A stretch of DNA of 20,238 nucleotides. It comes from a virus. The stretch is from positions 1 through 20,238 of the IMG/VR virus record IMGVR_UViG_3300020185_000329; one strand, 5' to 3'. The notes below the pieces were generated by a model that was not told where the DNA came from, did not search any database, and saw nothing but the letters and a program-made list of their open reading frames with translations. Positions 10,436-16,076 of this stretch are shown here, piece by piece. The translations under genes were made by a program, and so were the position numbers. Numbering within the stretch: the first letter of the stretch is position 1; each line of letters starts with the position of its first letter.

Positions 10436-11562
10436 TAGAAACCGTCCTCTAATAGAATGTCTTCCCGATTCAGTGTCCTCTCTTCTACGAACGATAGAGA
10501 CAAATCAATCTCGACTGGGTATCCATCTGGATGGAATGCCATGCTACTTGAATTGTAGTTAGTAGAGATTGCCTTTAGGTGACACTTCTTCATCTTAGTA
10601 CCCACACGCTTCTTAACACCGGCTTCGTTCTCGTAGAACATGTCCAACTCAAACATGTGTGGGTACTTGTATCCCGCACTAATCCCGCCAACGACTATAG
10701 GGTCTGGGTATGCATAACCACGGAATCGTTTTATAATCTTCTCAACTTCTTTTGCTTCCCGAGCAGACTTAGGAATGAACTTGAACTGGAATGCGAATTC
10801 ACGTATGTTAACACCCTTGAATACAGTTCTTGCATTAGGGTTCACGGTTACACCGAATGCGAGAGAAGTGACATTACCGGCAGTATTGTTGACCGAATTA
10901 GCAGTACGTTGTAATGCAAGTCCAGCAGCAGCACCCTGTAGGTTACCAAAGGCAAGGTCTGTTAGGTTGGAAAACCCTTTCCCTGTGGCCTCACCAAGAG
11001 TTTCGAGGATACCTTTACCTTGACTAAGAGCCCCTACAGCACCAGCACCCATTGGGCCCAGTTCCGGTTGCGCGTAGTTAAGACCATCCGCTTGTGTCAT
11101 TGCAATGGGTAGGTATAGTTTAACCGAGTTTCCGGTATCCTCTACAGACCTATCAGAATACTCCATAGGACTTTCTTTTCCATGCTTTTCTACATACCGT
11201 TTATCCAAAGAGTTCTGAACTCTGGTCTTCTCTTCTCTATATTGGGCAGGGGTGAGTTCTTTGTTAGCATATTGTTGATCAATAGTTTTGCTTTTGTCAT
11301 TCAATGCTTTATACTGCGCATCCCCATCTTCTCCCAACAGCTTACTAACTGTCGCACTATCTCCCTTCAGGGTTGGTGGTACAATCTCAAACACCTTAAA
11401 TGTTATGCTCGCGCCGTATCTCTCTTGGTTATTAAGAGGGTATGTCAATTTTTCGGGCGAAGATAGGACGGAGTTCGATGGAGCGTCATGAGCCCTTTCA
11501 GCTTCAGACTTGTCTCCCTGAATGAACTCTTTTATCTCAGATACAAATTGTTTGATTGGCAT
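10435..11562 (-). CDS. 48: gp48-like tail-tube initiator / baseplate cap protein, 375 aa
   Basis: gp48 and gp54 cap the hub and start polymerisation of the tail tube. The C-terminal third carries the tube-type fold pattern: VFKGVNIREFAFQFKFIPKS (about 252-271), EAKEVEKIIKRFRGYAYPDP, then HLKAISTNYNSSSMAFHPDG and YPVEIDLSLSFVEERTLNRE near the end. Similar blocks occur in proteins annotated gp48 in T4-like marine phages, and length matches T4 gp48 (364 aa). The N-terminus is charged and helical (residues 80-130). The Ala/Gly-rich segment 175-230 is probably flexible. It is the first gene of the left operon, 28 nt behind the predicted late RNA start. gp54 is the alternative name, but another candidate for that role lies at 12779. 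Confidence 0.75.
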   Translation of the reverse strand: MPIKQFVSEIKEFIQGDKSEAERAHDAPSNSVLSSPEKLTYPLNNQERYGASITFKVFEIVPPTLKGDSATVSKLLGEDGDAQYKALNDKSKTIDQQYANKELTPAQYREEKTRVQNSLDKRYVEKHGKESPMEYSDRSVEDTGNSVKLYLPIAMTQADGLNYAQPELGPMGAGAVGALSQGKGILETLGEATGKGFSNLTDLAFGNLQGAAAGLALQRTANSVNNTAGNVTSLAFGVTVNPNARTVFKGVNIREFAFQFKFIPKSAREAKEVEKIIKRFRGYAYPDPIVVGGISAGYKYPHMFELDMFYENEAGVKKRVGTKMKKCHLKAISTNYNSSSMAFHPDGYPVEIDLSLSFVEERTLNREDILLEDGF

Positions 11563-11578
11563 TGGTGAACCCTATGTT

Positions 11579-11586
11579 TATAAATA
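11579..11586 (+). promoter_or_regulatory. T4-type late promoter (TATAAATA) for gp4 and the right-going operon
   Basis: The plus strand reads GTTTATAAATAGT. The expected RNA start is near 11592, leaving a 24-nt leader before the gp4 ATG at 11616. Confidence 0.82.
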
Positions 11587-11595
11587 GTATGACAG

Positions 11596-11603
11596 TATTT
11601 ATA
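11596..11603 (-). promoter_or_regulatory. T4-type late promoter (TATAAATA) for the left-going baseplate operon
   Basis: The minus strand reads GTGTATAAATACT. The expected RNA start is near 11590, 28 nt before the gp48 ATG at 11562. It faces the plus-strand octamer at 11579-11586 across a 9-nt spacer. Confidence 0.82.
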
Positions 11604-11615
11604 CACAAAATTATA

Positions 11616-12131
11616 ATGAAAACATATAAAGGTAGGTACAAACCGAAGAACCCAGAGAAGTATGCTGGGGACGTGGACAATGTCGTCTACCGTTCGGGGT
11701 GGGAACGACATGTTATGAAATGGTGTGACGATAGTCTGGACGTGGTACAATGGATGTCCGAAGAGTTGGTTATACCATACATCTGTGAGACAGACAAAAA
11801 ACCTCATCGATACTTCATGGATTTTGTTATCAAATACAAGTCGGGTCGCGTTGTGCTGGTAGAGGTCAAACCTCACAAAGAGACGAAGTTACCTGTACGT
11901 AAACAGGGTAAGTCCCGTCGAACCATTCTGAACGAGGGTATGACCTACATCAAGAATCAGTCCAAGTGGAAGGCCGCGTCAGAATACGCGAAAGATAGAG
12001 GGTACCACTTTGAGATATGGACTGAGAACGAACTCACCGCCATGGGCATCATGCCCAAGTCTACCCAACGTATGCGTACCAAGAAACCTTTGAAGAAACT
12101 ACCTCCATTCCGTAAGAAGAAAAAGAGTTAA
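11616..12131 (+). CDS. 4: Head completion protein gp4 (PD-(D/E)XK nuclease fold), 171 aa
   Basis: gp4 is needed to finish filled heads so that tails can join. The start at 11616 (MKTYKGRYKPKNPEKYAGDV) is chosen because this is the conserved N-terminus of gp4; the frame extends upstream only to a TTG at 11556 that lies before the late-promoter RNA start. TnsA/PD-(D/E)XK-type motifs are visible: WE at 29-30, YFMDFVI with Asp69, and LVEVKP with Glu83 and Lys85. The C-terminus is very basic (KKPLKKLPPFRKKKKS), consistent with DNA binding. Unlike in T4, where it shares direction with gene 53, it is here divergent from the baseplate operon. The nuclease residues are intact. Confidence 0.88.
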   Translation: MKTYKGRYKPKNPEKYAGDVDNVVYRSGWERHVMKWCDDSLDVVQWMSEELVIPYICETDKKPHRYFMDFVIKYKSGRVVLVEVKPHKETKLPVRKQGKSRRTILNEGMTYIKNQSKWKAASEYAKDRGYHFEIWTENELTAMGIMPKSTQRMRTKKPLKKLPPFRKKKKS

Positions 12132-12778: not shown

Positions 12779-13489
12779 ATGGCTGGCATAGAACAATTAA
12801 AAGGTAAACTGACATCTAAGAATGGTATTGCGATGGCGAATCAGTTCGCGGTCACTCTTCCTTCTATGAGCGGTATAGAATCAAGAGAACTTAACCTAGT
12901 GTGTAAGGACGTTACTTTGCCAGGCAAACAGATAGTGAGTCTGGATAGAAACGTCGGACTATTCAATGAGAAAATTGCAAACGGTTTTGCAGTCGAAGAT
13001 GTGTCGATGACATTCTATGTACTCAATGACTATGGTGTCAAGAAATACTTTGATGCGTGGGCGAAAAAAATAACTGGATTGAATTACATTGTAAAACCTG
13101 CTGGGGCCTCAGATGATGCGTCCGCAGAAGAAAAGGCGGCCGCTAAAGAAGCTCTTGCAGAATTCTCTAACTCTCTCAAGATGGGAGAATTGGGTTACAA
13201 AAACGATTATTCTAAGTCGATTATAATACGACAGTTGCGTAAACCTATCGCAAGGTTCGGATTCGACCTCGGCCCATTTGATTTCAATTTTGATGTTGGG
13301 GGTGCATCTATATACAGCGTAGAACTGTTAGAAGCATTCCCTACATCGCTTAGTTCGATACAACTGAGCAACGACGGACAACTAGTAGAGTGTACAATGC
13401 AGTTCTCGTACACCAACTGGAAAGTGATAGGGGACGAAAGAGGTTTATTAGATGGAAAACTCGATATAAACTTAGGCGGAATAATTTAA
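12779..13489 (+). CDS. 54: gp54/gp19-like tail-tube initiator protein, 236 aa
   Basis: The protein has the tail-tube family pattern: MANQFAVTLPSMSGIESREL (19-38), LVCKDVTLPGKQ (41-52), then NGFAVEDVSMTFYVLNDYGV and KKYFDAWAKKI, and a C-terminal SIYSVELLEAFPTSLSSIQL followed by a strand pair ending FSYTNWKVI. This fits the fold shared by tube protein gp19 and the initiators gp48/gp54. Similar proteins in T4-like marine phages are annotated gp54 (320 aa in T4), but a gp19-type tube subunit cannot be excluded (T4 gp19 is 163 aa). A hydrophilic Ala/Glu/Lys-rich insertion at about 107-130 (ASAEEKAAAKEALAEF) looks like a surface loop. Its place beside gp26 and the tape measure supports a role in tube assembly. 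Confidence 0.65.
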   Translation: MAGIEQLKGKLTSKNGIAMANQFAVTLPSMSGIESRELNLVCKDVTLPGKQIVSLDRNVGLFNEKIANGFAVEDVSMTFYVLNDYGVKKYFDAWAKKITGLNYIVKPAGASDDASAEEKAAAKEALAEFSNSLKMGELGYKNDYSKSIIIRQLRKPIARFGFDLGPFDFNFDVGGASIYSVELLEAFPTSLSSIQLSNDGQLVECTMQFSYTNWKVIGDERGLLDGKLDINLGGII

Positions 13490-13509: not shown

Positions 13510-14217
13510 ATGGCTTTACCAAAACTGAACTCAGCACCAACATATGAAATGAAAATCCCTTCGACGGGACAGAGCGTGGTCTACCGACCATTCCTCGTAA
13601 AGGAACAGAAACACCTCCTTATCGCATTCGAAGCACAGAACCGCCAAGACCTAGTCCGGGCAGTTGTACGAACAATCGAGGCGTGTGTCGAAGAGAAGAT
13701 TGATTCGCCCCTAACAACATTTGATGTCGATTACATGTTCACCAAGATACGTGCCAAGTCTGTTGGCGAGACAGCAGATATACTTGTTCCATGTGGAGAG
13801 TGTGACACTAAGAATGAAATTAAGGTCGAACTTGATAAAGTAGAAGTAAGTGGTGAGATACCAGAGATGCTGGTACAGATTACAGAAGATGTTACTGTTA
13901 AGATGAAGTTCCCGACGTACGAGGAATTTCTATCCAACCAGACTCTTCTGGACAGCTCTTCTGCAACAGAGGCGTTACTTCAACTTATCGTAACCTGTAT
14001 GGATTCGGTCTTGACCGAAGAAGAAAGGGTCTCTATTAAAGATGAACCCCACGAAGAAATTGTAACCTTCTTGGAGTCTATGACGACCGAACAGTTTGAG
14101 CAGGTATCTGCCTTCGCTGCTTCGATACCCGCACTGACCCAAGACCTAGAATTCGCATGTACATCATGCGGTCATAATAATAAGAAAACACTGAAAGGAC
14201 TTGACGATTTTTTTTGA
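13510..14217 (+). CDS. 26: gp26-type baseplate hub assembly protein (T4_baseplate family) with two CxxC pairs, 235 aa
   Basis: The start ATG at 13510 (MALPKLNSAPTYEMKIPSTG) follows AGGA and gives the family N-terminus; the frame is open further upstream but overlaps the previous gene there. The pattern PFLVKEQKHLLIAFEAQNRQ (27-46), then CVEEKIDSPLTTFDVDYMFT, is typical of the T4_baseplate family that holds T4 gp26/gp51. Cys95-Cys98 (PCGEC) and Cys217-Cys220 (CTSC) probably form a zinc ribbon. The middle (KFPTYEEF, then VTCMDSVLTEEE) is conserved. The gene ends GAT TTT TTT TGA TAA; the T run and the in-phase continuation in the -1 frame suggest a second, longer product of about 295 aa (see the slippery-site entry). 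It lies two genes upstream of the tape measure, the usual site of tail assembly chaperones. Confidence 0.82.
   Translation: MALPKLNSAPTYEMKIPSTGQSVVYRPFLVKEQKHLLIAFEAQNRQDLVRAVVRTIEACVEEKIDSPLTTFDVDYMFTKIRAKSVGETADILVPCGECDTKNEIKVELDKVEVSGEIPEMLVQITEDVTVKMKFPTYEEFLSNQTLLDSSSATEALLQLIVTCMDSVLTEEERVSIKDEPHEEIVTFLESMTTEQFEQVSAFAASIPALTQDLEFACTSCGHNNKKTLKGLDDFF
14208..14214 (+). promoter_or_regulatory. Putative programmed -1 frameshift site (T TTT TTT)
   Basis: Eight T at 14208-14215 overlap the gp26 end, read GAT TTT TTT TGA. The heptamer T TTT TTT fits the X XXY YYZ slippery rule in the gp26 frame. After a -1 slip, reading continues TTG ATA AAT CTC to 14396. The SD-like AAAGGA at 14194-14199 ends 8 nt before the run, near the spacing that stimulates -1 shifting in dnaX. 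A 12-nt complement (14218-14229 with 14324-14335) begins 3 nt after the heptamer. Confidence 0.6.
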
Positions 14218-14396
14218 TAAATCTCTCTCATGACACCCTAGCCAATTACTACCAAGTCAACTTCCAACTACTGAATAATTTCAATTACTCGTTGGATGAA
14301 GTAGAAGGAATGATACCTTGGGAGAGAGAGATTTACTTGACGATGTTAGTTGACGATATCAACGAGAAGAATCAAAGAGCCAAACAGAAAGGATAA
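14214..14396 (+). CDS. 60-aa frame, probable -1 frameshift extension of gp26 (GT-like tail assembly chaperone domain)
   Basis: The protein is YYQVNFQLLNNFNYSLDEVE, then GMIPWEREIYLTMLVDDINE and a basic end. It has no ATG before codon 33 and starts only at a TTG that overlaps the gp26 stop; the AAAGGA upstream is 14 nt away, too far for good initiation. The pattern (aromatic N-terminus, SLDEVE, MIPWEREI, helix with acid/Lys tail) is like the T part of GT-type chaperones and similar small frames in T4-like marine phages. The best reading is that it is made fused to gp26 by frameshifting and that the fusion binds the tape measure encoded 4 nt downstream. A separate protein from TTG, or a miscounted homopolymer joining both frames, are the alternatives. 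Confidence 0.7.
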   Translation: MINLSHDTLANYYQVNFQLLNNFNYSLDEVEGMIPWEREIYLTMLVDDINEKNQRAKQKG

Positions 14397-14399
14397 CCA

Positions 14400-16076
14400 A
14401 TGAGTCTTAAACGAGTATCAGAGAAACTTGGAGAACAGAACGAACTCTTAATGGAGATTGCTCTGGACATCTATGGGTATCTGGATAGTGCAATATCTAA
14501 GGTAGAGACCTCTAGTAAAACATTGGATGCTATAAACGCTACCAATAATAACATCTTAAATGTCGTACAATCGTTTCAGACTCAGGGCGGAGATGCCCTA
14601 GAAGAAAAGCGCGACAACAAACTGGCTGACAGCAAAATGCTCGCGGCCTTAGAGGGTATCCAGAAGAACACCAAGGGTGGTGCCACTAGCAAGAAGGGTT
14701 TCGGAGAGACTGCCGGTAAAGGTATCGGAGCAGGTGTTGGTGCTGGTCTAGGTTTCGCTATGAAAGGACTTGGTGCGGTCGCAACTCTTGGTGCGTTAGG
14801 TTTTGGTATCGGTGCATTCTTTACTGGTTTGGCATTAGGTGACAAAGCGCAAGCGATGATTGGCACGGATATGTCTGCCACTAAGAAGAATATGATTACT
14901 CTTGGTGAAGCATTCGCAGAAACTCCCAATGAAGGTCTTTTGAAAATGGGTGCAGCCATGGCGGTTGGTTCCATGTTCGGTAGTTTCAAAGGTGCCATGA
15001 AAATGGGATTCTTTGGTGCTGGTATAAGTGCGTTCTTCGGTGGTTTAGCATTAGGCGACAAAGGAATGGGTGCACTAGGCGTTGACGGTTCAACACTAAA
15101 ATCAATGATGGTCAATATGGCTGAGGGATTGAACGCATTCTCTGGTACCTCACTAGCAGCACTAGGCGGTCTTATCGCATTTGGTAGTGCATTTGGTTCT
15201 GCCGCGGTTGTAGGACTTCCCCTCTTGGGTGCTGGACTGGCAGGGTTCTTTACTGCCTTAATGGGAGTTACTGAGTTACTTGGTGCGGCAGGCGTAGACG
15301 GTAGTGGTCTACGTGACATGTTGGTAAACACCGCAGAAGGTCTCGCGCCACTTAGTGAACTAGACGGAACTAACCTAATTGCGGTTGGCGGTGCCATGGG
15401 AGCACTAGGTCTAGGCATGGTCGCTCTAATGGGTGGTAGTGGACTTGCTGGAGTTATGGACTTCATTGGTAGCCTTTTCGGTGGAGACGACGAGACAATA
15501 TTCGATAAGTTATATAATGGTCTACAGCCCTTATCTACATTGAACGCAGATAACCTTAAAGGTGTTGCAGACATCTCCAGTGTCATCGATGGACTATCCG
15601 ATTCTCTGGACAGACTTATTGATACTGACTATGATGCGGTCAATGATTCTATAGGAAAGTTTGGTAAGACGATGGCATATGCAATACCTATGCTGGCTGC
15701 AATAAAAGGCCAGGGTACCGGAGAGAACCCTTATGTAGTCGGTGAAGGTTGGTTTGATGGTCAGAAGAAACTAGACTTCTCGCCAGGTATAAACAGCTTC
15801 ACTCCTCAAGATGTACAGATGATGAATAACATCGCATCTGCGGGAACACAAATCTCTTCAAACTCTTCGGGACAAAATAGTAAACCAACATCCGCAGGGA
15901 ACGTCAGTAAACTAGTGACCGAACAAGAAACCGCAAATACCGCGGCACCGGTTGTGATTATGGATAATAGTAGTAACACCTCAACATCCGGCGGAGGTGG
16001 AGGACACACGGTTTTAGGTGGGCCTATCTCTGCTTTCGATTCTATAGACCCTTACTTCTCTACCCGTCCCGCATAA
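14400..16076 (+). CDS. Tape-measure-like tail protein (gp29 role), 558 aa
   Basis: Start at 14400 with AAAGGA 6-10 nt upstream, overlapping the end of the 60-aa frame region. Layout: N-terminal helical/coiled-coil part (1-90), Lys/Gly hinge (91-112), long Gly/Ala-rich hydrophobic region (113-365) built of repeats of about 70 residues, an acidic helix (366-425), and a Ser/Asn/Gly-rich C-terminus with GGGGG. Length is close to T4 gp29 (590 aa). A hydrophobic, repetitive protein directly after a probable frameshifted chaperone is the standard position of a tape measure, which sets tail length and is ejected with DNA. I cannot see direct residue homology to T4 gp29, so no gene number is given. 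The stop TAA sits in the T-tract of the opposite-strand terminator. Confidence 0.65.
   Translation: MSLKRVSEKLGEQNELLMEIALDIYGYLDSAISKVETSSKTLDAINATNNNILNVVQSFQTQGGDALEEKRDNKLADSKMLAALEGIQKNTKGGATSKKGFGETAGKGIGAGVGAGLGFAMKGLGAVATLGALGFGIGAFFTGLALGDKAQAMIGTDMSATKKNMITLGEAFAETPNEGLLKMGAAMAVGSMFGSFKGAMKMGFFGAGISAFFGGLALGDKGMGALGVDGSTLKSMMVNMAEGLNAFSGTSLAALGGLIAFGSAFGSAAVVGLPLLGAGLAGFFTALMGVTELLGAAGVDGSGLRDMLVNTAEGLAPLSELDGTNLIAVGGAMGALGLGMVALMGGSGLAGVMDFIGSLFGGDDETIFDKLYNGLQPLSTLNADNLKGVADISSVIDGLSDSLDRLIDTDYDAVNDSIGKFGKTMAYAIPMLAAIKGQGTGENPYVVGEGWFDGQKKLDFSPGINSFTPQDVQMMNNIASAGTQISSNSSGQNSKPTSAGNVSKLVTEQETANTAAPVVIMDNSSNTSTSGGGGGHTVLGGPISAFDSIDPYFSTRPA
14790..15623 (+). repeat. Three to four degenerate ~70-aa repeats in the tape-measure-like protein
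   Basis: Units begin near residues 131, 203, 272 and, degenerate, 347. Shared elements are AFFTGLALGDK / AFFGGLALGDK / GFFTALMGVTE, then GTDMSATKKNMI / GVDGSTLKSMMVNMAEGL / GVDGSGLRDMLVNTAEGL, then KMGAAMAVGSMFG / ALGGLIAFGSAFG / AVGGAMGALGLG. The fourth unit keeps only the FIGSLFGGD and LYNGLQPLS positions. Confidence 0.75.

Follow-up and report, generated by a model that had tools for sequence, protein, structure and literature searches.

A probable −1 frameshift linking gp26 to a gp51-like domain in T4-like phages

Tail assembly chaperones in lambda and T4-like phages

Frameshifting of the lambda G/GT type is classical, and the lambda genes concerned follow the order V-G-T-H. Tail assembly chaperone (TAC) genes of T4-like phages were reportedly identified by Vladimirov, Gautam & Davidson in 2022 (Virology 566:9-15). 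A 2016 review describes the lambda-type G/GT frameshift as conserved in long-tailed phages "except T4" (PMC5009743). As relayed by two papers that draw on Vladimirov et al., some T4-like phages rely on two genes, one short and one long, in place of a frameshift (PMC10885494), and poly-T −1 signals are present in T4-like TAC genes (PMC12846349). Going by these accounts, the chaperone genes of that study belong to the same family as the gp26/gp51 genes treated here, and frameshifting in T4-like phages has probably been described already; the statement of an earlier note on this DNA that such an arrangement was not known for T4-like phages appears outdated. Phage Adele and the Vandenendeviridae/Andersonviridae TAC (PMC12846349) share with our locus a short frame that closes with a poly-T motif and a −1 extension, but the Adele motif is GTTTTT and the phage group is another one, and the likeness is one of description.

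As in lambda, the locus analyzed here runs from a tail tube gene through G and T to the tape-measure position. It also resembles lambda G/GT (PMC5009743) in that a −1 frameshift, presumed here, falls where G ends, with a small T domain in the −1 frame. It differs in having a T-run heptamer and a conserved RNA structure 3′ of the slip, and the likeness is one of arrangement.

In T4, gp51 is needed for assembly and is absent from the particle (PMC3004832). In phages of the T4 type (Tevenvirinae and near relatives), the short gene 26 and the long gene 51 lie on opposite strands, as seen in RB32, WG01, Roth21, L9-6, AS-gz, and Kimel. In a scan of RB32, WG01, L9-6, and Kimel, both gp26 and gp51 matched PF12322, while a match to PHROG 634 at the end of the protein was found for gp51 alone and not for gp26. 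These proteins are homologous to those of our locus, with gp51 carrying the T-like domain in frame; the difference is that the T4-type genes are divergently transcribed as a short and a long gene and have no slip site. The equivalent sites in RB32 read GAG TTC TTT GAG in gp26 and GTG TTT AAG in gp51.

The gp26 locus and its −1 frame

In the window (the whole 20,238-nt stretch of DNA analyzed here, from a marine T4-like phage), gp26 occupies positions 13510 to 14217 of the plus strand, which also carries every other feature of the locus described below. Its zero-frame product, a short, putatively G-like protein of 235 aa, matches PF12322 (T4_baseplate, 6e-56), covering residues 10-235 in a profile search, and PHROG 150 (1.1e-55). 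The gene ends GAC GAT TTT TTT TGA, with a run of eight T at 14208-14215. The candidate slippery heptamer T_TTT_TTT (14208-14214) directly adjoins the zero-frame stop TGA (14215-14217), and AAAGGA (14194-14199) lies 8 nt before the heptamer. A one-base slip back on the heptamer would lead into the −1 frame (14211-14396), reading F-F-L-I-N-L-S-H and onward to a TAA at 14394-14396; with 60 aa after the slip, the joined product would come to 235 + 60 = 295 aa. A −1 frame TTG at 14214 overlaps the zero-frame stop. The layout described in the earlier note, with gp26 ending GAT TTT TTT TGA in an eight-T run, AAAGGA 8 nt 5′ of it, 60 residues of −1 frame from TTG, no ATG for 32 codons, and a fusion of about 295 aa, held throughout, the ATG-free stretch measuring about 32 codons. 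The window's likely genes add up to approximately 5,900 codons; the gp26 end holds the only T_TTT_TT[T/C] heptamer in phase among them, and just 1 of the 11 Phe-Phe pairs in these genes, the one at the gp26 end, is coded in this manner. Because this is the sole in-phase instance, we do not ascribe the heptamer to chance.

The −1 frame after gp26 is coding. Over 53 codons it is free of stops in 58 unique relatives of the T_TTT_TTT group, all of which have stops in the other two frames, and pairwise differences among these relatives fall mostly on its third codon position (2372, 879, and 7090 for the three positions in order). In a profile search, the 60-aa frame matched PHROG 634, "baseplate hub assembly catalyst" (2.4e-22), and it also matches the end of PHROG 150 (2e-7) and has 82% identity to its counterpart in phage C48C1 (2e-28). 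A tblastn search with the frame matched 1430 phage records at a permissive limit of E <= 10, the weakest of which are no evidence by themselves. Protein similarity continues through the slip into T4 gp51, where both domains form one chain. By sequence similarity, then, the frame that the earlier note rightly called conserved-looking and treated as an unnamed 60-aa open reading frame is the C-terminal domain of T4 gp51. A Pfam search with the frame returned weak matches only (DUF6760 and Stealth_CR2), and both were set aside as its identity. Most of the small "gp51, baseplate hub assembly catalyst" open reading frames of cyanophage and other marine T4-like genomes probably represent the last part of a chaperone made by frameshifting, which is often given a late start or overlooked. 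In public annotation, the gp51 frame is started well past the slip in C48C1 and Mosig and is omitted in S-WAM1.

Directly 5′ of gp26 lies a tail tube-like gene (12779-13489; PHROG 45 "tail tube," 1.4e-24) in the position of lambda V, and a gene of 558 aa (14400-16076) takes the tape-measure position of lambda H. The order tail tube, gp26, T domain, and large gene agrees with that of lambda. The product of 14400-16076 has a C-terminal match to the C48C1 neighbor (2e-14), and matches to tape-measure PHROGs were obtained for the corresponding proteins of phiN3, D490, XZ1, and HTVC008M; the product itself gave no significant family match in profile searches and no usable PDB match. It is plausible that this gene encodes the tape measure; the earlier note's description of it as tape-measure-like stands by position and by the matches of relatives, not by its own sequence. 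AlphaFold models reached a pLDDT of 86 for the window's gp26 and 88 for a T4-type gp51. The latter model recovered its own family in BFVD but gave no PDB match at E <= 0.001, the best VIA-align hit (Z 5.0) being an unrelated chain. Looking for a solved chaperone fold (e.g., HK97 gp13) with sequences and with the gp51 model turned up nothing convincing, an absence that shows little.

Elsewhere in the window, positions 2-1210 of the minus strand hold long collagen-like Gly-X-Y repeats in a probable tail fiber gene, and a plus-strand gene at 11556-12131 encodes a protein with a TnsA-like endonuclease domain (PF08722, 1.4e-21). The latter sits immediately 5′ of the DNA end protector gene, a place taken in relatives by a head completion/closure gene.

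The heptamer and its flanking signals among relatives

For comparison, the 3′ ends of gp26 were taken from IMG/VR contigs and named phages, with T4-type genes and truncated contigs left out; the 176 readable loci form 53 clusters at 80% and 25 clusters at 60% protein identity. As the earlier note had proposed to check, the T run and the −1 overlap at the gp26 end are kept in relatives: an in-phase T_TTT_TTT or T_TTT_TTC is present in 175 of the 176 loci, and tblastn located the gp51 domain in 173 frameshift-type loci, each time in the −1 frame. The T_TTT_TTC form (six T, then C) accounts for 93 of the 176. Lineages with the heptamer include the Kyanoviridae, Pelagibacter phages HTVC008M and Mosig, Schizotequatrovirus, Angelvirus, Nanhuvirus, Menderavirus, Emdodecavirus, Rhizobium phage IG49, and a Nitratidesulfovibrio phage. 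Within the loci sampled, the heptamer appears near-universal outside the T4 branch, a detail that may be new. The first Phe codon of the slip is always TTT, compared with 70.5% of Phe codons in the same genes; if clusters are counted as independent, which is only partly true, the chance of this invariance is 9e-9 (53 clusters) or 1.6e-4 (25 clusters). The nucleotide preceding this codon is T in all 53 clusters, across GAT, AGT, AAT, TCT, and GCT codons. The single exception among the 176 loci, Vibrio phage D495 (locus 2130-2330), reads CTT TTC AAG TAA and has no heptamer; a similar −1 frame is kept there, its ATG overlaps the stop, and this phage may have switched to translational restart.

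Just 5′ of the slip, where AAAGGA would act as an SD-like stimulator in the window, anti-SD pairing is stronger than in synonymous shuffles (mean, −6.5 versus −4.9 kcal/mol; 53 clusters); at four positions further upstream, it is the same as in the shuffles. RNA folding 3′ of the slip also exceeds that of synonymous shuffles, with a mean z of −2.7 for the T_TTT_TTT group (30 clusters) and −3.2 for the T_TTT_TTC group (17 clusters); control windows within gp26 gave −0.3 to −0.8. From the predicted fold, the shuffles, and pair counts, we propose a stimulatory helix whose 5′ arm (14220-14230) begins 5 to 7 nt past the heptamer and whose 3′ arm (14319-14333) codes for W-E-R-E-I. The arms exceed the shuffles in 27 of the 30 clusters of the window's clade (arm z below −1).

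Two registers of this helix compete in the window's clade, and a single fixed register for all lineages was rejected. In the first, 14222-14230 pairs with 14319-14327; 93.9% of cells are paired (55 sequences), with slid versions reaching at most 79%, and two pairs are changed on both sides (12 cells), as much as which is seen in 0 of 500 shuffles. Six of the nine pairs in this register are invariant and hence uninformative. In the second, 14220-14229 pairs with 14324-14333; 86.9% is paired, and one pair is changed on both sides in 18 sequences. Kinship of sequences alone can beat shuffles without any structure, and the evidence that the helix is a real conserved structure is good but not conclusive. 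In the T_TTT_TTC group, a clear arm-to-arm duplex occurs at this place in only 5 of 17 clusters, with folding strong in other forms. Nitratidesulfovibrio phage SRB7757 has the strongest folding 3′ of the slip of all clusters tested (z of −8.5), in a form unlike the window's helix. A limited search of open papers found no description of a 3′ RNA element at a T4-like slip, and the structured element may be new.

Frameshifting, its rivals, and the T4 branch

Since very divergent relatives keep the heptamer in phase, as well as the −1 frame, but not the TTG, a G/GT-like −1 frameshift, the reading put forward in the earlier note, is the best explanation of the locus. We estimate a probability of roughly 0.9 that programmed −1 ribosomal frameshifting yields both the short gp26 (235 aa) and a long gp26-gp51 protein (295 aa), a judgment made from sequence comparison. 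The two frames would then constitute one tail assembly chaperone gene, in which most ribosomes would terminate at 14215-14217 to give the G-like form, while some would slip back one base on T_TTT_TTT to give the GT-like fusion. Slippage would be aided by the SD-like sequence on the 5′ side and by RNA structure starting 5 to 7 nt on the 3′ side. Lambda suggests by analogy that the short form would serve to coat the tape measure protein, with the gp51 domain bringing in tail tube subunits. Points against this reading are that T_TTT_TTT is less shift-prone than A_AAA_AAG in E. coli constructs (PMC5009743), that no match to a solved chaperone fold emerged, and that the tape-measure candidate lacks a family match of its own.

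Alternatively, the gp51 domain could be a small protein of its own, made by coupled re-initiation at TTG 14214 or a later codon. This would fit the overlap of TTG with the stop codon, the AAAGGA upstream, the annotation of gp51 as a separate gene in databases, and the ATG that Schizotequatrovirus, P-SSM2, and D495 have at the stop or close to it. We nonetheless regard it as very unlikely, as relatives 89% identical at gp26 have TAA or TAG stops, so that the TTG is lost, and these same relatives have no −1 frame ATG before +95. Furthermore, AAAGGA sits 14 nt from the TTG, synonymous positions within the heptamer are conserved, and the protein similarity that crosses the slip leads into a T4 protein that joins both domains in a single chain. 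Initiation of the second frame at TTG or ATG was rejected for the window's clade, where neither is conserved. The presence of relatives with an ATG-started second frame, which the earlier note named as a refutation, had a divided outcome: such a start is not conserved in the window's clade, and an ATG near the stop is found in S-WAM1 as well as in the three cases named above. An ATG at or just past the zero-frame stop is present in D490, XZ1, and 1.081, in P-SSM2, and in S-WAM1, and in these phages restart could add to or replace slippage.

A similarly low probability attaches to transcriptional slippage, in which RNA polymerase would add a base at the T run and part of the mRNA, with nine U, would encode the fusion. 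Bacterial RNA polymerase slips on runs of 9 A or T (PMC5009743), a length that eight T nearly reach, but the T_TTT_TTC loci offer six T only before the C, the phase relative to the codons is fixed, and the eighth T is part of the stop codon. The SD-like element and the structure 5 to 7 nt downstream likewise fit slippage by the ribosome, although both processes could contribute. That a continuous gp26-gp51 gene was broken, or misread by one base during sequencing, has a negligible probability: homopolymers are error-prone, but the same layout is found in many independent contigs and finished phage genomes, the stop codons after the run differ, and half of the genomes have T_TTT_TTC. The recurrence of the arrangement across many independent genomes likewise rules out an assembly error.

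Returning to ribosomal frameshifting, a broader proposal is that a three-part signal (SD-like sequence, T heptamer, and 3′ RNA structure) sets the proportion of the two chaperone forms across most of the T4 superfamily, with the T4 lineage having replaced the signal by gene duplication; we give this even odds. In the window's clade, the 3′ structure would consist of the helix, a loop of approximately 90 nt, and a second arm deep in the T frame. A short and a long chaperone would be obtained in either of two ways, by recoding in most lineages or from a pair of paralogous genes in T4 and the phages nearest to it. A tree built on the G domains, with an arbitrary root and some long branches, places frameshift-type gp26, T4 gp26, and T4 gp51 in three separate groups. 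Because several Straboviridae genera keep the frameshift, we infer from its distribution alone that frameshifting came first and that duplication replaced it later in the T4 branch. T4 gp26 has an annotated product from an internal in-frame start, gp26′ (BFVD entry Q8SDG4), and the short chaperone gene of T4 itself may give two products.
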